Source: Opisthocomus hoazin (taxonomy: Eukaryota > Chordata > Aves > Opisthocomiformes > Opisthocomidae). Taken from it: a DNA stretch of 64,000 nucleotides. The stretch spans positions 8,928,001 to 8,992,000 of the forward strand of contig NC_134440.1 in assembly GCF_030867145.1 (NCBI RefSeq), given 5' to 3'. This document shows, in pieces, positions 3,700-61,970 of this stretch (position 1 is the stretch's first letter; every line of letters starts with the position of its first letter). The position numbers were made by a program, and so were the translations under genes. The notes below the pieces were generated by a model. The model saw only the letters and a program-made list of their open reading frames with translations. It did no database searches and was not told the DNA's origin.

Positions 3700-5250
3700 A
3701 TGGAGGTCAAAGAAGAGGTTCCAGGGAAAAGACAAGGGGGAAGCGCGCCCGCCAGCCCTGGAGCGGGAGCGGGGCGGGGGCCGAGGGCCGTCTGTGCCAC
3801 CCGGGGCAGATTCCCCGCCGGGAGCTCCGTCCGTGTTTCCCGTTGGCACCGGCCCCTTTCCCCTCGCACCGGGTAAGGAAGCCGGGCTTCCGCTGAGGCC
3901 CGCCGGGGGCCCCAGCAGCCGCCTGTCCGCCCACCGCCCCTCCGCGCCCGGCAGGCCGGGCTTCCCCCGCTGCCGGCCCCCTGGCCCGGGGTGCCCGTGC
4001 CCGCCCTGCCGAGCGGGGAGGGGCGGGGCCGAGCGGGGAGGGGCGGGGCCGAGCGGGGAGGGGCGGGGCCGAGCGGGGAGGGGCGGGGCCGAGCGGGGAG
4101 GGGCGGGGCCGAGCGGGGAGGGGCGGGGCCCGGCCCCGGGGAGCAGAGCGGCGCGGAGCAGCGCCCAGGCCGCCCCGCCCCGCGGCCGCCACCTCCTCCT
4201 GGCGGGGTCTGGGGCGCGCAGAGGCCGGCGGCGGAGCGGGGGGCTCGGCGGAGAGCGGGTGGGCGCCCGTGGGGCTGGCGGGGGGCCGGGGCCCGCCGGA
4301 GCGGGGGAGCAGGCGGGGCGCGGGGGCTGGTGGCGCCGGGACCGGGAGCTCTGCCGAGGGGCGCGGGGCGAGGGGGTTCGGGGCCCGGCGGAGCCGCCTC
4401 GGGCGGGCAGAGCTGCGAGCGGCCGGTTCCCGCCTGGCGAGGGGCAGGGCCCGGCGGCGCCCCCGGGGCCGCGGCAGCCGGGAGGAGCGGGGGGGGGGCG
4501 GCTCGGCGGGGTTTCCGCGGGCCTGCTCCGGCGCAGGCGGCTCGGGGGAGCTGGGGGGGGCGGAGCGGGGCTCCCCGAGCCGGGGGGGTCCGCGGGGCTC
4601 TGGGGCTCGGCCGGGAGGGGGCTGGAGCCGAGGGCAGGGTTTCTGCTGGCGATGAGAGCGGTTCCCAGGGGAAGGGGCGGCCAGGCTGGCCCCAGGGCTG
4701 GAGGAGTGCGTCTGTGGGGGTGGGTCTCGTCGAGAAGATTTGTGTCATGGTGAAAATTCCAGCAGGACAAGGACAGAAAAACCCCCTCCCCTTAGGTTAA
4801 AGTTGCCAAAAAACCCCAAGCCGGATGCTGGATGGTGAACCTGGAATCACTGGGAGCCCGACGCTGAGGTGCGGGAAGCCCTGGCCGTGGAGCCAGGCTG
4901 AAGTCGGGTGGGAGAGCGCGAGGTGAGCGCTGCTGGGGCGGGCGGTGCTGCCGGGCGGCGAGTCAGGCGTCGGGATTTTAGCCGGCCGGGTTTGAGAACG
5001 CTCGCTTATTGATCCGCATCATCTCTCGGCATCTGAAGGCCACTCCGTGGTTTGCAAGTGCGATGTGAAGCTTTCTGCGAGGGGGTTTTGCCGGAGCCGG
5101 GTGGGAGGTGTGGAGAGGACGGACGCGGGGAGGTTCGTCCTCCGAAGGAGCCGAGCTCTGCTGTGGCCGCAGGGACAACCGGTTGTGGGGTGCGAGGCCG
5201 AGCTGGTGACGGATGGAGCTGCGAGCTCGGGTTTCTCAAGATAGTCGGGA
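3700..5250 (+). promoter_or_regulatory. CERS4: CpG island, probable CERS4 promoter region
   Basis: About 1.5 kb is extremely G+C- and CpG-rich, with many GGGCGGGG (Sp1/KLF) boxes, unlike the flanking sequence. It is the only strong CpG island upstream of the plus-strand CERS4 coding exons. The CERS4 ATG sits one base inside an internal exon (acceptor just before 19558), so at least one non-coding 5' exon must lie upstream, and this island is the natural place. That link is inference. Long open frames on both strands here are a by-product of stop-poor GC composition. Confidence 0.6.
4011..4130 (+). repeat. Six perfect 20-bp GC-box tandem repeats
   Basis: The unit GAGCGGGGAGGGGCGGGGCC occurs six times without a mismatch. 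Each unit holds a consensus Sp1 GC box (GGGGCGGGGC). The perfect identity implies recent expansion, and the array sits within the CpG island. Confidence 0.97.
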
Positions 5251-28500: not shown

Positions 28501-31500
28501 TTCCTGTCACATCAGCTGCCTTGGACTGACTCTCATGTTGCCGGTCCTTGCAGCTCGGCAGGCGTGGATCGCATGAGGTTCCTAGTTCTGGGGTGGGTCA
28601 TTCTGTTGCTGTGCAGTCCCCGAGCCTGAGATCGCCCTTTCCGGAAGCCAACTAAAGTCTTGGCCGTCATCACAGAGATTGTGAGGAGCGTCAGAAGACT
28701 GCAGAGGCAAATGGTGGGTAGTTTTCCCACGAGAGAGGAAAAGAGTGAGCTTGAAGAACCTGGCAGGATAAACCAGAGCTGGAACGGCTGCTGCTGAGGG
28801 AAAAAGCATTGGCAGGATTGTGAATTGTCAGGCAGTATTAGGATTTAACCTCATCCGTGAAGTCGCAGGATGTGATGCCTGTGGTAGGAAGAGGAATCAG
28901 ATTTTCTTCCAGCTCCTTTTTGCAGGATTTCTTGGCCTTGAAGCAATAGCTATCAACCCTTACCAAGGACGTATGAGCAGGGGACTGGGGTTCCAGTCCC
29001 AAGGGGTAGTCCTAGCGCGAACACGTTGCTGCCTTGACGAGGCTCTTGCGTCATGGTTCGTACTGCAGTGGGGCGTGTGGTGCCCCAGGACATTCAGTAC
29101 CAGGTTAAAAGTAGAAGGATGGAGGCTAAAATGAAAATGCAGAGATTTGTCTGGGTTGTGCAGCCAGCCTTTCTCCCCAGCAGTGGGAAGGAGTGTTCTC
29201 AGGAACACTTGCCGATATGGTGGTCCCTGAGCTTCCTCTTGCCTGTCTGTCTGTGAAATCCGCTCATTTCTCAGGAAGACTACTCCTGTTGCAGAGACCT
29301 AACTCCAGGCGTAGCTTTGCACACGGGTTTTCCCCATGGCTTTGCCTTCACCCCCATTGCACTGAAGCTGGCACTTTTATCCCAGAGATCTGTGGTATCG
29401 GAGCGTATCCTGCCCGCGAGACTCCTGGCAGCAGTGCGATGTGGAGCAAGAACAGCGCAGCGGGCTGCTGCCTCGCTCTGTTCCGTTCACCGGTTACATC
29501 CCAGCCAGCCTTGTGGTTTGCTCCCTCTCCCCTGAGCTCTCAGACGCCTGCTTCTGAGTCAGCTTTTGCTCGTCCAATACGAGATGAGATTTTGCTGTTC
29601 TCAGCAGCCTTCTCCTTGGGCGGAATTCCACATTATGGAGCAGTTGCAGAATGTAAATCAGTGTCTCCGTTTGTCTCCACCACAAGAACACAAATCACTA
29701 AGTAAGAGTGGAAAGAACCACATCTGAAAGTTGGTAATGAACATACTGTTGTACAACATGTTTAGACTATGTAAGTCACTCTCACATGATAGCATTGAGG
29801 TAAATGCACTCCATGAAAAACTCGCTTTGCTTAAAAAATAAGGCTATCTGTGGTGACGCTTCCAGAGAGAGTATAAAACGTGACAAACTTATTTCTCCAG
29901 AGTTTGGCATGTGACATGAGCCTAAGGACAAGAAGGAGGGTAGTGGCAGGATTTCTGTGGGTAATCTATTGAAAAATTACCCTAACAGGTTTACAAAACA
30001 GGAGAATATCAGGTAGGAAAATGGTGCTGCCTCTGCTCAGGACACCAGTCAGGTTATTAGATGGTACAGCATCAGAATGTTGAAAGCCATGACAAGATTT
30101 GGTGCAGAGCTTTGAAAATTATTTAAGCTGCAGTGAATCTTTCTTGGAGTGACAGATTTAAGGGACTCGGTCTCTTAAGACAGGGTGAGAACATGATTTG
30201 ACAACAAAGTCTTGTGAGGAGACGATACCAGAGTTTCAAAGTTGAAACAGGAGAAGCACATAAAGAATATGATGTTTCAACATTTAGCATTAGTAACCAG
30301 TTGCTTACAAGGGGGATGGAAAGATTTTCTACTCTCGGAAGTCTTTACCCTAAGAAAGGACAGCTTTCTGAAAGCTGCCTTAGCCTGAACGGATTTCGGC
30401 TTGCCAGGAGCGTCCAGGTGGGCTCTGTGGTGGGTCAGACGCAATGCCGGTGTTGCCTACTCGGACCTTCAGACCTGGATCTGATCACTGCTGCCTTGCC
30501 TGTTTTCCAGGGTGCTCTGATCAGTTTGGCCAAACGGTGTGACCTGCCGGTGAGGAAGGTGGAGAGGTGGTTCCGCTGCCGCAGGAACGCAGACCGACCC
30601 AGCCTGTCGAAGAAGTTTTGCGAGGCCTGGTGAGCGGGAGCACAAGCTATGAGCAGCAGGGGCCTTTCACTGGAGCTGAGCTCCGCGGGCAGATCACTGA
30701 CGCCCTGCCTGCCCTCCATCCCTACGCAGGAGCATCCCCGCTCCACTGCCTGCCCTCCATCCCTACGCAGGAGCATCCCCACTCCACTGCCTGCCCTCCA
30801 TCCCTACGCAGGAGCATCCCCACTCCTCTGCCTGCCCTCCATCCCCACGCAGGAGCATCCCCACTCCACTGCCTGCCCTCCATCCCTACGCAGGAGCATC
30901 CCCGCTCCTCTGCCTGCCCTCCATCCCTACGCAGGAGCATCCCCACTCCTCTGCCTGCCCTCCATCCCCACGCAGGAGCATCCCCACTCCACTGCCTGCC
31001 CTCCATCCCTACGCAGGAGCATCCCCGCTCCACTGCCTGCCCTCCATCCCTACGCAGGAGCATCCCCACTCCACTGCCTGCCCTCCATCCCTACGCAGGA
31101 GCATCCCCACTCCTCTGCCTGCCCTCCATCCCCACGCAGGAGCATCCCCACTCCTCTGCCTGCCCTCCATCCCCACGCAGGAGCATCCCCACTCCACTGC
31201 CTGCCCTCCATCCCTACGCAGGAGCATCCCCACTCCACTGCCTGCCCTCCATCCCTACGCAGGAGCATCCCCACTCCACTGCCTGCCCTCCATCCCTACG
31301 CAGGAGCATCCCCACTCCACTGCCTGCCCTCCATCCCTACGCAGGAGCATCCCCACTCCTCTGCCTGCCCTCCATCCCCACGCAGGAGCATCCCCACTCC
31401 TCTGCCTGCCCTCCATCCCTACGCAGGAGCATCCCCACTCCACTGCCTGCCCTCCATCCCCACGCAGGAGCATCCCCGCTCCACTGCCTGCCCTCCATCC

Positions 31501-34500
31501 CCACGCAGGAGCATCCCCACTCCTCTGCCTGCCCTCCATCCCTACGCAGGAGCATCCCCACTCCACTGCCTGCCCTCCATCCCCACGCAGGAGCATCCCC
31601 ACTCCTCTGCCTGCCCTCCATCCCCACGCAGGAGCATCCCCACTCCTCTGCCTGCCCTCCATCCCCACGCAGGAGCATCCCCACTCCTCTGCCTGCCCTC
31701 CATCCCTACGCAGAGAGCATCCCCACTCCTCTGCCTGCCCTCCATCCCCACGCAGGAGCATCCCCACTCCTCTGCCTGCCCTCCATCCCTACGCAGGAGC
31801 ATCCCCGCTCCTCTGCCTGCCCTCCATCCCTACGCAGGAGCATCCCCACTCCACTGCCTGCCCTCCATCCCCACGCAGGAGCATCCCCACTCCTCTGCCT
31901 GCCCTCCATCCCCACGCAGGAGCATCCCCACTCCTCTGCCTGCCCTCCATCCCCACGCAGGAGCATCCCCACTCCTCTGCCTGCCCTCCATCCCTACGCA
32001 GAGAGCATCCCCACTCCTCTGCCTGCCCTCCATCCCCACGCAGGAGCATCCCCACTCCTCTGCCTGCCCTCCATCCCTACGCAGGAGCATCCCGGCTCCA
32101 CTGCCTGCCCTCCATCCCCACGCAGGAGCATCCCCACTCCTCTGCCTGCCCTCCATCCCTACGCAGGAGCATCCCCACTCCTCTGCCTGCCCTCCATCCC
32201 CACGCAGGAGCATCCCCACTCCACTGCCTGCCCTCCATCCCTACGCAGGAGCATCCCCACTCCACTGCCTGCCCTCCATCCCTACGCAGAGAGCATCCCC
32301 ACTCCTCTGCCTGCCCTCCATCCCTACGCAAGAGCATCCTGGGTCTTCCCTGCCCCACCTGGTTCTTCTGCAACTCTCTGCTGCTTCTCTGTTACTGAAA
32401 CATTCCTTGCTTTTCACTTTTATTTTCACTCCCAAGTCTCCTTTTACTCCTGTCTCACTTTTATTCCTTATAGGGCCTCTGTTTCTGACTTTGTACGACT
32501 GGCATTCTGCTTTGAAACATATTTGCGGTTGAAAAACTCCCTTCTGTTTTGCATCTTACTGCTTGTTGCCTCTTTGCTGCTGTTTTGGTGCCTCCAGAAT
32601 AGTCAGCCTTTCTGTTGCCTTGCCCATGACTTCCCTTTGCCTCGCTGCTGCCGATTCCTTCTGCTGCGTCTCTTCTGCGCCTGTTCTGCACGCTGTTGCT
32701 TTCAAAAGTCACGGGCAGCGGGCTAGATTGTAATCTGCTGTCAGTTGACTTCGGCATTCTGAAAAGTTGAAAACCCAGCACCCTTTTATAGTGGCAGAAA
32801 AGGGTCCTATGTGAAAGCTTGTGTTCTCCAAAGAGCGAAACTCTCCCTGGAAACAGCTGTGTGCAAATCCTCCTTCTTACGTGGTGGCACAACATAAATC
32901 TCACATCAGCCAGTTGTGTGAATGTTAGTGCTGGCTAAGCTTTCCACAGAGAAGAAGGATTCTCTCGAGCTTGGTTGAAATGCCTTACTTATGAGTGGCT
33001 GCTCTGCTCTTCGAGTAAGCAAGTAGATTTTCTCAGGAGAGCCACAGAGATGAATGAAATTATTAAATACCTGCCGTGCTGTTCATCTGCTAGGAGCGGG
33101 TATCTGTAAGGTAGCCATCAACTTAGAGCTAATTGCTTCATGGTCCATTTAGCACTCAACCTCTCATTCAAAACCCCTGCCTAAAAACCCTAACTGAAAA
33201 AGGAAAAAAAAAAAAGGATGTGTATTATTTATTTATAATATTCCAGATAGTGGCAGTTAGAAATATTAACAAAACCTGTGGACAAAGAGTTGTAAAGCAG
33301 CTGTGCTCAGTCTGCTCCCATCAAGATGAAACGTAAGCTCTCCCTGTGCTCAGCTGACTTGCAGTAACTACTAAGCAGTAAATGCTGTTCTGCCTCAGCT
33401 CACGGAGGATGGTGTCCTTCCACCTCCCCCCCCACCACTGGCAGTCGGCAGAAGGAATGTCTTTCCATGTGACGTGGTAGCTTTGTACAGTCTTGGAGCT
33501 CCCGGGGGTTTCAATGACAGGTGGAGTCTCTCTCTCTCAATGTAGTTACTTCTGATTTGTTATGGAGATATTTGGAAATTAAAGGGCTGGTTTAGGGAGT
33601 TTACTCCTTTGAGGATTTCCTGTGTTCAGTTTATTAACAACTTGTTTATTCTGTTGGAGTGAAATTCCCCGCATTCCTTACTATGTGTGAATGTTCAGTG
33701 TGACCTGCCTCTGTCCGCTGAACTTGGCAAACAGTTCGTATGTCGTTCTGTGTGGGTTTGAGGTGGGTAAATCGTTCCCAGCTCCTGACTGAGACCAAAT
33801 ATGAGAGTAATTAATTACTTTTACATGATAATTTAGCATGCCTAATCTCCAAAAGCCTAGGAGAGAGATTGGCATGGTTTGACTTTTCCAAATGCATCTG
33901 GTAGTGCTGGGAAGGTTTGGGATGATGATCCAGGTGATTGTAGTAGGCAGGACTCTCATGTTTTCTGCTATCTCTAAAGCAGCAGAATTGCTCCTTGTGA
34001 AGTCTGCTGAAGGTGCCGGTGGCATGCAAAGAGCCACTTCTGTTACGGTCTGGGCCAACCTTGACCATATTCATGTGTGTCTTTGCCTGAAGGGTGTCAT
34101 TCTTGGAACGAGGGTGATTGACACACAGAATTGCAGCTTGGTGCTTCATGAATGGCATTCTAATGTACTTTGTGTTGTTTGTTTGTAGCTGGAGGTTTAC
34201 ATTTTACGTCATTGCTTTCTTCACTGGACTTGCTGTCCTGTATGATGTGAGTACACAAGCAGTGCCCCCGGCTCTTCTACCTAGCCAGTGCCTGCGAGAA
34301 TGGCAGATTTTGTTGTCAAGCGTGTCCTTTCAGAGCTGCTTCTAGAGGTTTTCCCACCAGGTCAGTGTATATCCTCTGCACAGCACACTTAGGAGACCAC
34401 AAACATATCGGACCGTGCTTATTTTAAAAACTCCAGCTCAAAACCAAGAGGTTTCCTCTTCTTCTGGCAAAGCAGAAGACAGCTGAGTTTGTGTAAAGAT

Positions 34501-51204: not shown

Positions 51205-53799
51205 TCACGCCCGTGTATCGAATCTTCGCACAGAAACACACCCATGAATAGGAAGTGGGCAAGGGAGTTTGTAATCTACGACCTCGCACATATCAACGTA
51301 GGGATCAAAGAGGACTACGACGGGGAGGGCACTGTTGCCCTTCCTCTGTCCAAGGAGATAAATTCGTCCATTCACAGTGCTGCATCCCATGAAGAACTTC
51401 TGGGTCAAGCATTCCTCATCCACCTGGGACCATTCGTCTGTCTCCACGTCAAATCGCAGAGCTCCCCCTCCTATGGTGTACAGAGCACCATTCAGTGACG
51501 TGATGCAGAGGTCATACCTGGAAGGGAAGAAACCCTTGATTAAAATCAACAGAAAGATCTGGCCCTTGAAATACTCACTGTGACCCTGGTCCTCATATCA
51601 AGTCCCGTTTAAACAGAGAATCACAGAAGTGTTGGTGGGACAGAACTTCTGGATTTCTCTAGTCCAACCTCTTCTCGGAGCAGGCCCAACACTAGAACCT
51701 TTCTTCTCTTGCCAAGTCCCAGAAGATTACTTCTTACCTGGGAAGTGGGGAGAAGGAGATGACATCCCAGCTGTCCGTCTCCGTGTTCAGCCTTTGCACT
51801 CCATCATATACATGTCCATTTTCATCCAGGCCACAGACCACATAGATCCTGGTTCCCATGCTGACCGCATCTCCTCTCTCCACAGGCTGAGCCATAGGAC
51901 TCATGCTTTCCCATTCCGACTCCACCAAAGACATGCGCTCCACTGCTGGGATTATCCCTTCATCCGTGCTCCCTCCAAGCACATAAAGGTAGAGCCCTGC
52001 TCCTACCGCACAATGGCTGTTGCGGGACTTCTTCATGGCAGGCCCTTCCAGCCAGCTATTGTCCAAGCAATTATAGATGAGCACCCAATCCACGCTGTAC
52101 CACACAAACTCATCCCGGAAGTATCCTCCTGTCACAAAAAGGAAGCTCCCTGGAATGACAGCAGAGAGAAGTATCAGTTACACGAAGGCTGAACATTGCT
52201 CCTGAGAGCTACGGTTCCCGTCTCTCCCTGGGCTGTACCGATGAGGCGCAAGATGAGCAGAGAAAATCCCTGCTCTTTGTAGGAGTCTGCCGTACTTGAT
52301 TGCTCATCTGCAGACACGCTGGGCCTATGGGATACAACGAGTCCTTCCAAGTCTGCTCCCACTCTCAAACAGAACCGTGGAAACACTGGTTGGAAAGAGC
52401 CTCTGGGGATCTCACGTCCAAACTCCCATCTGAAATGGGACCACCACCAACATCAAATAGAGGAAGCCACGGTATTGACCCATCTTGAAAGTCTCCAAGC
52501 ATGAAGATTTCACAACATCCATGGTTAGGTTTAACCTAACAGCAACTATAAATCAGAAGTCACCATCTGTCAAAACCACCACGAAAGCGAAGGCCAAAAA
52601 ACGTGCTGCTTGAAGTGAAATCATGAGACTCACTCCAGATAAAGCTGATGCAAGGAGTTCAGTAGTTTCTGCCATATTAAAAGAAATATTCAGCCTTGCC
52701 TAACATTCTCCCAAGACTAAGGAAAACAAAACCATTCTTTAAACAGATATGAACACAAAGATGAAGGAGGTTTTAGCAACGCAGCGTTACAGGAGAAGCA
52801 GCTGAACTCCCTGCGTTTGGGTCTCTAAGCCTCAACTTCTGTCTGCACTTGCTCGGTCCCACTTGTCTGGAAGTTACCTACTGCTGCCACTGCATACTGG
52901 GTGAGGTTCCTGCGCTGCAGTGGAGAACAAGCCTGCCAGGTCCCTGTTTTAGGTTGAAAGAGAAATAATTCTTGCTGTTTCTTGTCGTGCTTTCCTCCCA
53001 GGACATATAAGGTGTCATAGCTCCGACCAGCGTAAGGACACAGTTCCGTATTTTGCCAGCTGGGAGGAGGACAGCTGTCTAACTTCTTTATTAGTCTGGA
53101 GAAGGTATCGGTCTCTGCAGGGCGCTTGCTGCGTTTCACCAAGATGTCAAGGAAGGACAAACTCAGAAAAGCGACCCTGACTTCGCCCACCAAATCCAAA
53201 AAGTCGTCTTCTCTCGTTGCTGGGTCCTCCATTATCCACCTCATAATGCTGTCAAACACCACATCTTCTCGCGAAACAAAGAGGTCGTCACTTTTCAGGA
53301 GCTGCATCAGCATTTCTTTGGGTAGTGCCTTAAATTCTTCCTGGCAAATCACATCCCCCCAGTGAGTGAGAGCCACGTTCATAGCAGACGCATACAGCTC
53401 TCTAAAGCCAAACTGCTGCGAGTAGGTCATCAGGCCCAGGCAGTTGGAAACATGCAGCTCCCTCTCCAGAAATTTCTCACACAACAGCTTCACCCTGTCA
53501 AACTGGAAGAAATCAGCTGTTTCCAGTAAGCTGGTCACGTTTTCTTGACCTATAAGCACTTGGGCTGTGCGTGTGAACTCGAGGAGCGCCTGGAAAGGGA
53601 CTGCATCGATCCCTCTGATCACTATGTGGCTTTCCGAGCTCTCTCTTGCTCCCCCAAAAAACATGGCTTCAAAATAACGACTGTGTACGGAAAGCACCCT
53701 ACGGCTGACCTGAAAGAGTCTCTCTCCAACCTCAAGAACTGTGTCTGCAATCACTTCTGTCTGAGCTCCCAGCTCCTCTGGTTCCTCTGCAGGCTCCAT
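51205..53799 (-). CDS. BTB-BACK-Kelch (KLHL-type) protein, three exons
   Basis: Likely substrate adaptor of a CUL3 ubiquitin ligase. This role is known for the family and is inferred here. Coding exons in transcript order: 53799-52878, 52149-51738 and 51517-51205. Splice sites are GT-AG and the phases fit, giving 548 residues. BTB domain is about residues 13-115 (VLEVGERLFQVSRRVLSVHS, YFEAMF). BACK is about 118-222 (NCLGLMTYSQQFGF, DVVFDSIMRWI). Six kelch blades fill about 263-548 (LYVLGG, LFVTGG, LYVLGG, IYVVCG, LYTIGG, IYLLGQ). The usual FxxH of the BTB core reads FQVS, so the conserved His is Ser. The C-terminus HGCVSVRRFDTRA resembles the end of KLHL24 and its relatives, but overall I cannot assign a human orthologue. 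Convergent with CERS4, tandem with LSM7. Confidence 0.93.
51617..51690 (-). repeat. Short CR1 3' end in the kelch gene intron 2
   Basis: GAGAATCACAGAAG and 'tctagtccaacct' match the last ~75 bp of CR1 in reverse. It is heavily truncated. Confidence 0.6.
52376..52525 (-). repeat. Diverged CR1 fragment in the kelch gene intron 1
   Basis: 'cactggttggaaagagcctctggggatctcacgtccaa' and a later 'tgaaagtctccaagcatgaagatttcacaac' match the layout of the antisense CR1 3' region. Old copy. Confidence 0.6.
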
Positions 53800-55734
53800 G
53801 CTTGTTGACTGTCGAGCGGTTAAAATTAACTCAGCCCTTCTGCAGCCTTTACTCGTGTGAGGTCTCTGGAAACATTATGCCCCTAGCTAGGATAAATACA
53901 AGATAAGCCAATCTTGTCCTAAAAATAGAATATGTTTACTACCCTCCTGCTTTGCTCTTCAGTCTCTCCTGCTGCTTTCAGAGCAGCAGTAGCAGGAGAG
54001 CCGTATAGCCCAAGAAGCACAGATTTAATTGGCATCTGCCTTAGCCAGGTAAGACCACAGCGAATTAGGGGAGCTGTTAGCCAAAGAGCCTCGACTACGA
54101 GGAGGAAAGAAGCGAAACAACCCAAACCTTCCTAAGCACTGACTAAACATCAGTCAGTTGTAGAAAAACATTGAACCCATTTGAAAAAAAAGCACCCATT
54201 ACAATACTTTTCACTTCTGCAAATCAAAAGCACAGGAAAGCTTGAGACTTCCTGGGAAAAAAACACTGATTTCCCCAAAGCCACATCCTTCATCAGTTCA
54301 AGTTTAAAATCAAATTCCAGATTGCTTGCAGTACTTAGTAAACACTTAACTTTTTATACTTTAGTAAGAGATGGGGGAAGGAATGAGCCCCCATTCCAAC
54401 CCGGATGGCCGTCACATATTCGGTCATCCTTGATCTCAGTGCACTCAGCAAGTGTAGCCATACTACAAGCAACAGCTCATGATTCCACACAGCGAATATT
54501 TCCAAAGGGTTTAGACCAAGCTACCAAGCGGAGGGATTTGCATAGTGACCTTGAACTACTGTCCCTTATCCCAAAGAGCCCATCCCAGCAAGACTCAGTC
54601 CCATTTCTGGGTGGAGTTCAGAAGCACAGCAGTGCTACCTGCACCAAGAGCATCTTTCTTGCCTGGAGGTTCCCTCCTGCACCTCTGCAAGAGGCTTCTG
54701 CAAAACTGCTGGTACAAACGGGCTGCTAAGAAGAGTCGCATCTAGAATTAATCCAATAGCAAGGCATACACACGTTTAAAATTCAGCTTATTTTCAGGTA
54801 CTGGACTCCCAAAGACAACCCAGCAGTCTGCCCTGCGCAGAAGGACAGCCGCCTATCTCGCGATGAGGACTGAGCAACCTATTAACTGAGCCGGAAACGC
54901 TGGAAACGTGCCCCTCTCACGAGTTTACGCACTTGACACAACTTCAGGCAGATCTCTCTGTACCCGCTGAATCTAGAGTCTGGAACCCACTCAAGAGAGC
55001 TTCAGCCGGTCTGGCTTTGACCCTACACTCAGAAAACAAGAGTGTGCAGAGATGGTGCGGCAGGTTATTGGCATCAACCACCTCTCCCCCACCTAAGGGG
55101 CAGTTCAAGACTCTACTCAGGCTGATGGCAAGCAAATTCTGCTCCAAACACTCTAAATAAGGAGTCTCTTTTGAATTGTGCAATTGCATGAAGAACAAGT
55201 TTCATTGTGTTTGAAAAAAGGTTATGCTGGAAGGAGCATGACTCTACAGACAGCTCTGTGAAGCACTCAAAAAATGAACCCCGAGGAGATTAAAATCCAG
55301 AAGCGCTCAAGTTTACACAGGTGAAATGACACGTAAGACAACTAGTCCTTAGTATCATAGCCTGGAAAAGTCAGATAGACTTAAGTGGAATTTACTTCAA
55401 GTTCCCATTCGTTTCAGAGCTGACCCAGGAAAGGCTACGAACGGGAGCACAGTGCTGTTGCCACAATGAACAACCAACACAACCTGCCCTCGGCATGTTT
55501 TCCTGACAGCCACTAACAACAAGACTGCTGCTGCCACCAACACAATTTACTCTGCCACAGCCTCCTCGTAAAGGGTTCTCAGGAAAAGCAGGTGGCAGAA
55601 GCAAGTTACACACAGCCTAAGGGGACACAGCCTCTACTAGACAGTCTTTAAAATGCCGAACAGAAATGCACAAGTCGGAAAATGGCCTAGGTGCTCTCAG
55701 CCATTTCTCATCAATTTCCCATCTTAGAGTGGAC
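53800..55734. other. Between the kelch gene start and a CR1 copy
   Basis: This must contain the kelch gene 5' UTR and promoter (minus strand), but no CpG island or obvious TATA box is visible. No other gene recognised. Confidence 0.4.
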
Positions 55735-57323: not shown

Positions 57324-60300
57324 CTACCCATCTTGCTGCTGGATGAAAGGGTTTGGAATAGCTTCCATTCCGTCCTGCGGACAAATAAGAACCACAGAAG
57401 TCCCTCTGCAGACCACAAGTCCCAGCTGACGTGTGTCTTCTGTTAATTTGTATTGATCATCTGGATCTGAAAAGCAGAAATCCAGTTACAGCGGCAACAT
57501 AAGGAAAAGAAACCAAATTCCATCAACTTCAAAAGGCACAGACATACGGGTTTTTTCCAGGCGTCTCTGCATTGTTTTATTGAACATATGGACTGTGAAA
57601 GTGATGCAGCAGTAATACCCGATGTCTTCAAAACATTACTGATATACTAATTTTCAAAGCAGCACATGCCACAGTGAGCAATAAGAACTGTACTTTGTAT
57701 GCAAAGCAGAACGCATATCTTAAAGAATCCACAAGTCCTTTTATTCATCGAACTAAAACCATACACACAAGTGATTAAAAAAGCTCCCGATCCCATTTCA
57801 AATGCCATTATAGACAAATGTTTTGGGATCAATGCAAAACAGAAAGAGATCCTGACTTCAGAATTCACCAAGTACAGAACACACGGGTCCATCCCCAGAC
57901 CAAGCCAAACAAGGTTTGGGGACAGACAGGCAAACTCTTCACACAGCAACAGCCAATTCTACCCTCCTTGAGATGTAAATATATTCAATAAGAATGTACT
58001 ACACCCATCTTTTAAAGCTCCATTCTAAGCGCAAAATTAAAGCTTCAGGTGCTTCCTTGCAAGCAGGCAAGAGAATGCTCTTCAAAAACACTGTCCTATC
58101 ATATGATAAATCTTGTTTCAGAGAGGAGAAAGGGGAGTGTTTATCCTTGGATGGGAAAAAGAAACAAATAAGAAAAAAAATCTTACAGCTCTGTAAGCTC
58201 TAACGTGCTGTAAAAGGTGTTAATTCCACAGAAATGCAAAGACTGCATTTACAGTAGAGTTTAAGACAGTAAGATACTAGTTCTCACTGAGATGTTTTTC
58301 CTGCTTTGAGCAAACCAGCAACCCTGCAGCAGTACAGACAAAGGCAACTGCCTCATCTGAAGGGAGACACACTGCTTCATTCAAGCTGTAGAGGACAAGA
58401 GCGCTAAATGAATCATCAAATGGTTTGGGTTGGAAGGGACCTTAAAGATCATCCCATTACCACCCCCCTGCCATGGGCAGGGCCCCCTTCCACCAGCCCA
58501 GGGTGCTCCCAGCCCCGTCCAACCTGGCCTTGAGCACTGCCAGGGAGGGGGCAGCCACAGCTCCTCTGGGCAGCCTGGGCCAGGGCCTCACCACCCTCAC
58601 CGGAAAGAATTCCTTCCTTCCATCTCATCTACTTCTCCCCTCTTCCAGTCTAAAGCCCTCACCCCTTGTCCTGTCACCCCAGGCCCTTGCACAAAGCCCC
58701 TCCCCAGCTCTCGCAGCCCCTCCAGGCCCTGGCAGCTGCTCTAAGCTCTCCCCGCAGCCTTCTCTTCCCCAGGCTGAGCAGCCCCAGCTCTCCCAGCCTC
58801 TCCTCCCAGCAGAGGGGTTCCAGCCCTCGCATCATTGCTGGGGCCTCCTCTGGCCCCGCTCCAGCAGCTCCAGCTCTGTCCTGTGCTGAGGGCTCCAGAG
58901 CTGGACGCAGGACTCCCGGGGGGTCTCAGCAGAGCGGGGCAGAGGGGCACAATCCCCTCCCTCGCCCGCTGCCCACGCTGCTGGGGATGCAGCCCAGGGG
59001 ACGCTCAGCTTTCTGGGCTGCCAGCGCACATTGCCGGGTCGTGTTGAGCTTCTTGTCAACCAACAGCCCCAGGTCCTTCTCCTCAGGGCTGCTCTCAATC
59101 CACTCTCCACCCAGCCTGGATTGGTCTTGGGATTGGCCGAGCCAGAGAAGCTCAAGCAAGGACTACCAAGAACGTTCCACCACAGGGAATGTGCTTAATC
59201 TAACTTCCGTTATCTCATCCCTTTCTTTACACCTTAGTTATCACAAACACGTCTCGGTTCAGATGATGTCAACCTACAGTTTCCAGTTACTTAGAGCTAT
59301 AAGATTTTTGTCAAGAAAATTATTCTTGGGGAACAACAACAAAAAAAAGCACTTTACACAGACAGCATGTTACTTACCTCGCATATATTCAATGGTACCA
59401 TCAAGCACAAGGTTCAGAAGAGGGTCAAATCCTTTCAAGACACCACTTGCTGTGGAAAACCACATACAAAACAATGATTAGAGACCAAAACCAGGTATAC
59501 AGCAACACAAGAACGTGTGAAGGACACATTCGGTTCTCCAGCTCTGTGCCCTCCTGCAAGAAAGGCTGACAAGCAAACGAGACCAGAGATATTGAAGTGT
59601 CCTCTTCAAAGTCCAAATGCATGAGAACCCGGTTTCTGTTATGCCAACAGAAACTCACAGGTTTTTCAACCAATTCTTCAAAATGCTCTTCAAGACAGTA
59701 ATATTTTTGTTTCCAGCCAGTTTCAGGGTAATTTTAAGAATACTTCAGCATAACAAATCAATACAAGTCATACCACAAAAAAACAAACCCAAACAACCCC
59801 AAAACCGAATAAATACCCTTAGTGAAGAGGTATGACAAAAAAAAATAAAAATGCAGCAAGCCTAATATTTTGATGTGTTTTCCTCAGAAAAGCCATCTTC
59901 CATTTGCTCTCCTGGAACACAATCTGTTTGGCATAAGCACTGCCTTCAGAGGAATGCACTGCAGACAGTGCAGACAGACAAGCACTTTGTCCTAAACCAG
60001 AAGATGATTCCCCAAGACAGGTCACCAAATAAAGCGCAAGACTACACAGAATGATCTCCCAGTGTGAGAGATACTTGTTGATTACCAGCATTACTGTCAT
60101 TGCTAACAGCTCAAATCAAAGCAGAGACTCTTACAACCCCAGGTGTTGTAGAAAATGACAAAGGAACTTGGTGGGAATTTTTTGAGAAAAAAATCTAACC
60201 CAACAGATTCTATGAAACTGTCAACTGCCCAGAAACTACAACACCCACACACACACTTATCCATAAAGAGTTCAAGTAACTTCCAAACCTCATAAACACC

Positions 60301-61745
60301 AGGTCCCAGTGGAGTCTTAAAAGAGCTATTTAAAAGCAAACCAAGTTTGCTTTCCAAAAGCTTCTCTCAAGCATCTCCCACGCAGCACGCCGTTAACTTT
60401 CAGACAAACAACCGCTCTGCAGGCAGCACCATCAGCTGCACTGGGCTGGACAGCTGCAGGTATGGCAAGGGAGAGGGTGAGGGGGGAAACAGCAAAGTGA
60501 GAGCCTCGGAAGCGACAAAAAGCCATGGTGAAATATATTGAAACTATCTTTGAACTCCAGACACATTTAGTACATTGAGAGATGACAGGTGTGTTAATCG
60601 TAACGTGTGTGTTTCTTCACTGCTTTCAGTGCACCCTCGCAATGTGAAGAAGCAGGCAAAAGAAACAAGACAGCTGAAGACAACTAATAAAAGGTGCACA
60701 TAAAGATAAAATCGCAGCCAGGGGATTAACGTTAAAGATCAGCTTCGCACCAGCACCACCAAGCAGTAACAAACAGGAGCACCCACTACCCATCACCTCT
60801 CTGTGAAAGAGAGCAGCGTGCCCACGCAGGAGATGAAAGCCGGCAAGCAAAGAGCGAGGAAATACACCAAAACGGGGCGCAGGCCCCATCCCCGGCCCGA
60901 GCTCACCTTCTCTCCCACCCTGGAACTTCACCCGGATGGTTTTGTCGATGTACTTGGAGAGGTCCAAGATACTCTCCTTCTTCTTCTTCTCCTTATCCTA
61001 AGGGAGAGGAGCAACGGCAGTCTGCATTACAAAAAGCCCTCCCCGGCTACGCGTACGCTCCGTAACGCTGGTTTTCACACCGCTGCGCATAACAGGGCTG
61101 CAGAAGCGCCCCGAGGCCGAGCAGAGCCCCCCCAGAAAGGCCGGGCCGGTCCCCCCCGCCAGACCAAGCCAAGCCCACGCCCCCCCCCCCCCCTCGAGAC
61201 CGAGCCGAGCTCTCCCTCCCCCCCCCTCGAGACCGAGCCGAGCTCTCCCTCCCCCCCCCCCCGAGACCGAGCCGAGCTCTCCCTCCCCCCCCCACGAGAC
61301 CGAGCCGAGCTCTTCCTCCCCCCCCCCGAGACCGAGCCGAGCCGAGCCGAGCTCTCCCTCCCCCCACCCCGAGACCGAGCCGAGCTCCCCCCCCCCCCCC
61401 CCCGAGACCGAGCCGAGCTCTCCCCCCCCCCCCCCCCCCGAGACCGAGCCGAGCTCTCCCTCCCCCCCCTCCCCGAGACCGAGCCGAGCCGAGCTCTTCC
61501 CCCCCCGGAGACCGAGCCGAGCCCCACACGGAGGGGGAGCGGGAGGACGGGGCCGCGCAGCCACAGCACTCACGACCGCCAAACACCCGGGGCCGGGGCC
61601 GGGGCCGGGGCCGGGGCCGGGGCCGGGGCCGGGGCCGGGGCCGGGGCCGGGGCCGGGGCCGGGGCCGGGGCCGGGGCCGGGGCCGGGGCCCACTCCTCAC
61701 CACCATCTTGCTGGCGCCGCCACCACCGCCGCCGCCGCTCGCCAT
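57324..61745 (-). CDS. LSM7: U6 snRNA-associated Sm-like protein LSm7, four exons
   Basis: Subunit of the heptameric Lsm2-8 ring (U6 snRNA, nucleus) and the Lsm1-7 ring (mRNA decapping, cytoplasm). Coding exons in transcript order: 61745-61701 (or from 61706), 60997-60907, 59449-59378 and 57466-57324. All introns are GT-AG. From the inner ATG at 61706 the product is 103 residues, exactly the human length, beginning [11 protein letters not shown] where human has [11 protein letters not shown]. The Sm1 motif lies in [20 protein letters not shown] and [16 protein letters not shown]; Sm2 is [16 protein letters not shown]. The end is FIQQQDG. An in-frame upstream ATG at 61745 would add [13 protein letters not shown] (116 residues); both ATGs have a good Kozak context. 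Intron 1 holds two tandem repeat arrays; intron 3 holds a CR1 copy. Divergent from the gene at 61914. Confidence 0.97.
57467..58407. other. LSM7 intron 3, part before the CR1
   Basis: No further exon or RNA gene recognised. Confidence 0.4.
58408..59135 (-). repeat. CR1 LINE fragment, antisense, in LSM7 intron 3
   Basis: Begins 'atcatcaaatggtttgggttggaagggaccttaaagatcat' and runs to the 'cactctccacccagcctgg' segment. It is the same subfamily as the long plus-strand copy at 12695-13630. It lies in the same orientation as LSM7 transcription. Confidence 0.93.
59450..60906. other. LSM7 intron 2
   Basis: A/T-rich with a short CA run at about 60240-60258. No exon or RNA gene recognised. Confidence 0.4.
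61189..61517 (-). repeat. VNTR with long C runs in LSM7 intron 1
   Basis: Ten units of about 30-37 bp share the core GAGACCGAGCCGAGCTCT (plus strand) followed by a T/C tract. The C runs differ in length between units and reach 17-18 in the longest. Two units carry extra GCCGA steps. On the LSM7 sense strand these are G runs. Confidence 0.95.
61589..61690 (+). repeat. (GGGGCC)17 hexanucleotide repeat in LSM7 intron 1
   Basis: 102 bases are 17 uninterrupted GGGGCC units. The array ends 9 bases before the LSM7 exon 1 donor (GT at 61700-61699), so it sits at the very start of intron 1. In the LSM7 transcript it reads GGCCCC; in a plus-strand transcript it would read GGGGCC. Confidence 0.98.
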
Positions 61746-61913: not shown

Positions 61914-61970
61914 ATGGCGGGGCGGCGGGCCCGGCTCCGCGTCTGGCTGCTCCTGCACTTCCTGCCGCAG
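61914..61970 (+). CDS. SPPL2B: First coding exon, probably signal peptide-like protease 2B
   Basis: Nineteen codons (MAGRRARLRVWLLLHFLPQ) end at a GTGAGG donor. The peptide has a basic n-region and a hydrophobic core, i.e. the start of a signal peptide. Human SPPL2B likewise begins with a short signal-peptide exon and lies head to head with LSM7, so position is the main argument. SPPL2B is a GxGD intramembrane aspartyl protease of endosomes and the plasma membrane that cleaves type II membrane proteins. The rest of the gene lies beyond the window, so the identity is inferred. Confidence 0.7.

Follow-up and report, generated by a model that had tools for sequence, protein, structure and literature searches.

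A perfect (GGGGCC)17 array at the start of LSM7 intron 1 in the hoatzin: a probable slippage-grown microsatellite in the opposite transcript orientation to C9orf72

Pure GGGGCC arrays as long as the one described here, 17 units at the start of intron 1 of LSM7 in the hoatzin Opisthocomus hoazin, have been studied mainly at human C9orf72, the gene of amyotrophic lateral sclerosis/frontotemporal dementia (ALS/FTD). One review gives the healthy alleles of that gene as up to 25 units (PMC6350563), another paper as 3 to 30 units (PMC5822839), and intron 1 retention is reported from normal alleles as well (PMC4766718). The antisense poly-proline-arginine (PR) product of C9orf72 is reported to require a canonical AUG 273 bp upstream (PMC10541178). 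A second relative is NOP56, the gene of spinocerebellar ataxia type 36 (SCA36), which has a GGCCTG unit in intron 1. Disease alleles of this gene are expanded, in contrast to the 17 units at LSM7. Its exon-1 AUG has been reported to yield poly-proline-glycine (PG) from the intron-1 repeat (PMC11979933). Birds offer a third setting. Tandem repeats in the introns of their GC-rich genes are described as sequencing poorly (PMC6792250), and introns on chicken dot chromosomes show 'sequence stuttering' with length alleles that differ between individual chickens, length-variable introns amounting to 11% on macrochromosomes and 18% on microchromosomes (PMC12954441). Among the titles listed from an open-access literature search, none dealt with GGGGCC arrays of birds or of LSM7; matches to the name LSM7 seem to be microscope models.

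The window, that is, the whole stretch analysed, comprises 64,000 nucleotides of hoatzin contig NC_134440.1 (positions 8,928,001 to 8,992,000). On its plus strand, GGGGCC is repeated 17 times without interruption at 61589-61690, by exact count. The perfect period-6 run is slightly longer, at 61587-61690 (104 bp, i.e. the 17 units plus 2 bases), and Tandem Repeats Finder (TRF) gives 100% matches. Unit, purity and count are thus as an earlier sequence-only reading of this DNA had them. The longest period-6 run obtained by resampling the local 1.1 kb 2000 times under a first-order Markov model was 20 bp, and the remainder of the window has none above 18 bp; the array, which is present in the assembly, is therefore far above chance expectation.

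The host gene was reconstructed with human LSM7 as the query, for which three exons were recognised on the minus strand; a search constrained to GT-AG introns returned one model. It consists of the coding part of exon 1 (61701-61745, with in-frame ATGs at 61745 and 61706), intron 1 (60998-61700; 703 bp, 78% GC, GTGAGG ... CTTAG), exon 2 (60907-60997), exon 3 (59378-59449) and the coding part of exon 4 with the stop codon (57324-57466), all on the minus strand; the exon 4 stretch occurs once in the assembly. The LSM7 product acts in the U6 small nuclear ribonucleoprotein and in mRNA decay. The product of the model matches human LSm7 in the PDB with an E value of 2.2e-64 and the predicted quail LSm7 at 97%. 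It reads DQYKL; the passerine predictions read (Manacus, Pitangus, Sturnus and Ficedula) have DQFKL.

The reconstructed exons bear out the claim that the array lies where intron 1 begins, in a conserved gene of RNA processing. The distance to the donor needs a small correction, as ten bases intervene (GTGAGGAGTG) and not nine, which puts the first base of the array at intron base 11. More consequential is the strand. As LSM7 is read from the minus strand, its RNA carries (GGCCCC)17, in the same orientation as C9orf72 antisense RNA. Of the peptides proposed in the sequence-only reading, glycine-proline (GP), glycine-alanine (GA) and glycine-arginine (GR) would not come from the LSM7 transcript, which is C-rich at the array; GGGGCC RNA would require antisense transcription. 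PR could come from LSM7's own AUG if the intron were retained. The caution attached there to quadruplexes, R-loops and translation is equally in place here.

How did such an array arise? It is probable that this is a pure hexanucleotide microsatellite, grown by slippage in a first intron of CpG-island type, and that at 17 units it is near-neutral and spliced out. The starting point would have been a GC-rich seed close behind the LSM7 intron 1 donor, extended by slippage in a GC- and CpG-rich stretch, in a genome where GGGGCC has apparently also grown at 15 other places; the GGCCCC array would normally be spliced out of LSM7 RNA, and its length is probably variable. Seventeen units lie within the healthy C9orf72 limit of up to 25 cited above (PMC6350563). 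The microsatellite reading draws further on the purity and length of the array, on the LSM7 gene model, on the sister arrays and their GC-rich flanks, on predicted isoforms of two other birds that look array-free, on other GC-rich tandem arrays in the window, and on folding effects that are not specific to the array.

The sister arrays were sought in the whole assembly (1,482,131,872 bases, 415 contigs). An exact (GGGGCC)8 search gave 68 overlapping matches, all of them listed, which merge into 16 pure arrays with the following numbers of units: 18, 17 (LSM7), 13, 13, 12, 12, 12, 11, 11, 11, 9, 9, 8, 8, 8 and 8. The LSM7 array is the second longest. A short pure unit that recurs elsewhere in graded lengths, here 8-18 units over 16 arrays, is the pattern of slippage. 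Of the control hexamers, also taken eight times, GGGGCG and GGGCGC gave no array and GGGGCT gave one, so GGGGCC is not merely any GC-rich hexamer in this assembly, although three controls are few. The 500-bp flanks of the 16 arrays have a GC content of 0.62-0.81 and a CpG observed/expected ratio of 0.54-1.06.

The same figures bear on the possibility that the length or purity of the array is an artefact of assembly. GC-rich avian introns with tandem repeats are said to sequence poorly (PMC6792250), LSM7 intron 1 contains G/C runs of up to 18, and the length of 17 units is that of the assembly sequence. Sixteen arrays of graded length with related hexamers nearly absent are, however, unlike random error, and LSM7 is single copy with its exons intact; an artefact is thus very unlikely.

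Other birds were approached through their proteins. A search with LSm7 gave 1507 matches, of which 120 were listed and 27 sequences read. Two predictions read past the exon-1 donor, one from starling (P0044; KMA VRSGVAWAAL) and one from ruddy duck (P0035; KMA VRRGLRRPRG), and neither of these predicted isoforms has a PR run. These assemblies would therefore hold at most a seed at the site, and the array looks lineage-restricted. When the hypothetical PR isoform of the hoatzin was itself the query, the starling and duck isoforms ranked first and fifth, and nothing closer was found among the 120 listed of 783 matches. No LSM7 isoform with a PR run occurs among the 125 proteins listed from both searches, in which PR or RP is repeated at most 4 times in a row, in P0027 from a shark. 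It had been proposed that absence of the array from relatives would mean an assembly artefact. This does not follow: two birds look array-free, yet there are 15 other arrays in the hoatzin assembly, a combination that fits lineage-specific growth.

Some observations speak against a slippage-grown, near-neutral array. Both the starling and the duck isoform are predicted proteins, from assemblies that may have lost the array. Several arrays, furthermore, stand right at the beginning of first introns, above flank expectation at some thresholds, and GTGAG lies just upstream of the repeat at 13 plus 4 places genome-wide with a backward control of zero; a purely neutral account leaves this placement unexplained.

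The placement deserves a closer look. The LSM7 array and three others begin at intron bases 7-12 after likely first-exon donors, and in the donor-adjacent arrays apart from LSM7 the sense strand is GGGGCC. Expectations were taken from sliding positions in the 500-bp flanks, with a donor matrix and with score thresholds chosen after the data had been seen; one array whose donor overlaps it (L010) was left out of the count, and another (L015) has a donor that scores low. Within 20 nt, donors scoring at least 4 were found at 3 of the 16 arrays where 0.33 would be expected (P=0.0035), those scoring at least 2 at 4 against 1.07 (P=0.019) and those scoring at least 5 at 1 of 16 against 0.12 (P=0.12). 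Within 50 nt the corresponding figures are 4 against 0.90 (P=0.008), 5 against 2.95 (P=0.16) and 1 against 0.34 (P=0.30). Across the genome, there are 13 distinct places (17 matches) where (GGGGCC)3 follows GTGAG within 14 nt, and 4 (6 matches) where (GGCCCC)3 does; both patterns read backwards gave 0. The 13:4 ratio of orientations corresponds to about P=0.05, two-sided, calculated by hand. Donor adjacency beyond chance is suggestive, and LSM7 is of the minority orientation among the donor-adjacent arrays.

Could the array be a selected regulatory element, e.g. a quadruplex or R-loop behind the donor that tunes the divergent promoter or the splicing of the first intron? The donor statistics just given are in keeping with this, as is the distribution of quadruplex motifs. 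The array contributes a single long motif on the strand opposite the LSM7 sense, that is, on the template strand, and intron 1 has 5 sense-strand motifs, all inside a minisatellite of about 33 bp (61151-61525 on the minus strand by TRF and composition; 10.8 copies; G makes up 59% of its LSM7 sense strand, in runs as long as 18). Such a role is nevertheless unlikely. LSM7 has the minority orientation, the enrichment depends on the threshold (score of at least 5 within 20 nt, or at least 2 within 50 nt), the starling and duck isoforms are without a PR run, and shuffled arrays fold as strongly and leave the donor as accessible.

The folding results are as follows. In the predicted fold of the LSM7 pre-mRNA, 71.5% of array positions pair with the G-rich minisatellite, and the unpaired probability of the donor is 0.37 with the array and 0.57 without it. 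Thirty shuffled arrays gave a mean energy of -488.9 kcal/mol (standard deviation (SD) 5.2) compared with -466.4 kcal/mol for the natural array, with a donor accessibility of 0.35 (SD 0.10, n=30), near the natural value. An array-specific effect on RNA structure was therefore rejected, as shuffled arrays fold more stably with donor accessibility alike; the effect is one of composition, not of the repeat. No RNA family reached its gathering score within the window.

A further point is the frame that would open if intron 1 were retained. Exon 1 ends in phase 0 with AAG ATG GTG, and the intron continues without a stop as GTG AGG AGT GGG (CCC CGG)17. The frame (61047-61745, minus strand) would comprise exon 1, VRSG, (PR)17 and the minisatellite, 232 residues when counted from the first AUG; either AUG (61745 or 61706) is in frame with VRSG(PR)17, and the tail reaches a stop at 61047. 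PR is one among three possible frames of the array in LSM7 RNA. A transcript that retained intron 1 would thus encode (PR)17 by ordinary AUG initiation. The length of the frame was considered as evidence of coding and rejected, since an equally long frame appears in 408 of 5000 resampled introns, and the first 100 read-through residues have no homologue among the 7984 candidates sharing most words that were scored.

The frame raises the prospect of an active repeat of the NOP56 or C9orf72 kind, in which intron 1 is often retained or mis-spliced and the LSM7 AUG makes poly-PR, or the repeat RNA itself acts. To the in-frame AUG and (PR)17 can be added the reported exon-1 initiation in NOP56 (PMC11979933), the intron 1 retention of normal C9orf72 alleles (PMC4766718) and one cell study in which added PR peptide was toxic from a minimal length of 16 repeats (PMC6109075); the starling and duck isoforms, moreover, suggest that donors downstream of the usual one are used. 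In the hoatzin intron a GTGAGT lies at 61573. Nonetheless 17 units are short, and the usual donor at 61700 outscores every other site in the vicinity of the array. Reporter introns with G-rich repeats were stable and exported after splicing, whereas (CCCCGG)70 gave no cytoplasmic intron (PMC8363653). Activity of this kind is quite unlikely, and as it is in the minisatellite that the LSM7 sense strand is G-rich, an effect of the intron-export type should be sought there first.

The remaining arrays vary in their position relative to genes. Three lie close behind probable first exons: L015 at intron base 10 after a ZDHHC20-like exon (protein match E 1.6e-7, no Pfam match), L012 at base 12 after an exon that matches GH38 weakly (E 0.0025, below cut-off; mannosidases in the PDB at E of at least 0.46) and L016 at base 7 after ATGGAGCAGGACGGAGGGGAG and GTGAGT, a putative exon that starts MEQDGGE. 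L013 begins at base 44 behind an ATG, and L010 (base 5) and L021 (base 7) have a putative donor only. L017 (4920-4998) has 12 units that lie 11 bp upstream of the start codon in an RLIG1-like gene (E 4e-9), and a few further units occur directly after the apparent end of exon 1 of that gene. In L018 (4857-4925), (GGGGCC)11 is within a likely coding exon 1 and would be read as 11 proline-alanine (PA) units. L022 is in a likely 5' untranslated region and a RING-finger frame (E 2.8e-7) lies some 230 bp away from L009; no gene position was assigned to L011, L014, L019, L020 and L023. Frames from an upstream AUG are GP in L012, L013 and L016, GR in L015 and PR in LSM7. Near the start of contig C1 four shorter loci (L001, L002, L005 and L008) have 5-7 units and nearly identical flanks, as if a larger duplicated unit had carried the repeat.

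A bolder proposal is that the hoatzin keeps a healthy-range set of GGGGCC/GGCCCC arrays that follow directly on the donors of first exons and share the reading frame of host start codons (PR in LSM7, GP in the GH38-like gene and the gene starting MEQDGGE, GR in the ZDHHC-type gene), and that retention of LSM7 intron 1 would give AUG-initiated (PR)17, perhaps as a sensor of splicing stress. This is very doubtful; if true, the hoatzin would offer a natural model for cellular tolerance or use of GGGGCC repeats. Sixteen arrays, several at first-intron starts in frame with a nearby AUG, in any case constitute a natural panel. What lets GGGGCC grow? Does transcript orientation limit it? Does a host AUG make dipeptide-repeat protein outside disease? 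Should the arrays be neutral, they would provide a baseline for the GGGGCC load that a healthy animal tolerates.

Several other features of the window can be mentioned. A reading frame on the plus strand at 61914-61970 (MAGRRARLRVWLLLHFLPQ, then GTGAGG) represents the first coding exon of a divergent gene, presumably SPPL2B, judging by synteny. Its ATG, at 61914, is 224 bp from the array; the GC-rich divergent setting of the earlier claim stands, but the figure of about 220 bp is a distance to an ATG and not to a transcription start. The segment 62320-62930, in intron 1 of this gene, resembles a CR1 retroelement fragment. A perfect 20-bp GC-rich tandem array (4008-4130, 6.2 copies) lies in a stretch of 78% GC, probably a further CpG island. 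At 30705-32339 there is a 41-bp minisatellite (39.8 copies, 96%) with plus-strand frames open for 727, 632 and 565 residues. A BTB-BACK-kelch open frame of 349 residues is found at 52825-53874 on the minus strand; Pfam, run on 10 of the 217 listed open reading frames of the window, gave one kelch-like match.

With which known system does the LSM7 array belong? Avian sequence stuttering likewise involves local tandem growth in bird introns (PMC12954441, PMC6792250), and the minisatellite of about 33 bp fits it. The array differs, as its unit is a pure 6-mer and not a block of tens to hundreds of bases, a size that the minisatellite would have; LSM7 is absent from the main text of PMC12954441. 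With C9orf72 the array shares the pure GGGGCC unit, a position in the first intron according to the gene model, and a GC-rich 5' gene end, and poly-PR from the C9orf72 antisense transcript is AUG-started too (PMC10541178). The transcript orientation, however, is opposite, LSM7 sense being GGCCCC; the LSM7 repeat begins at intron base 11 and the human one 241 bp into intron 1 (PMC5822839); and the 17 units fall short of an expansion, for which about 30 or more is the yardstick (PMC6350563). As both the sense orientation and the expanded length are lacking, the array is not filed as a C9orf72-type expansion. NOP56/SCA36 likewise has a GC hexanucleotide in the first intron, in a conserved gene of RNA processing, with an exon-1 AUG that can lead into the repeat (PMC11979933), as it could in LSM7. 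The units differ, GGCCTG there and GGCCCC in the LSM7 sense strand, and so do the products, PG being reported from the NOP56 AUG and PR predicted at LSM7. By this analogy the LSM7 array, if active, should be closer to NOP56/SCA36 than to sense C9orf72.
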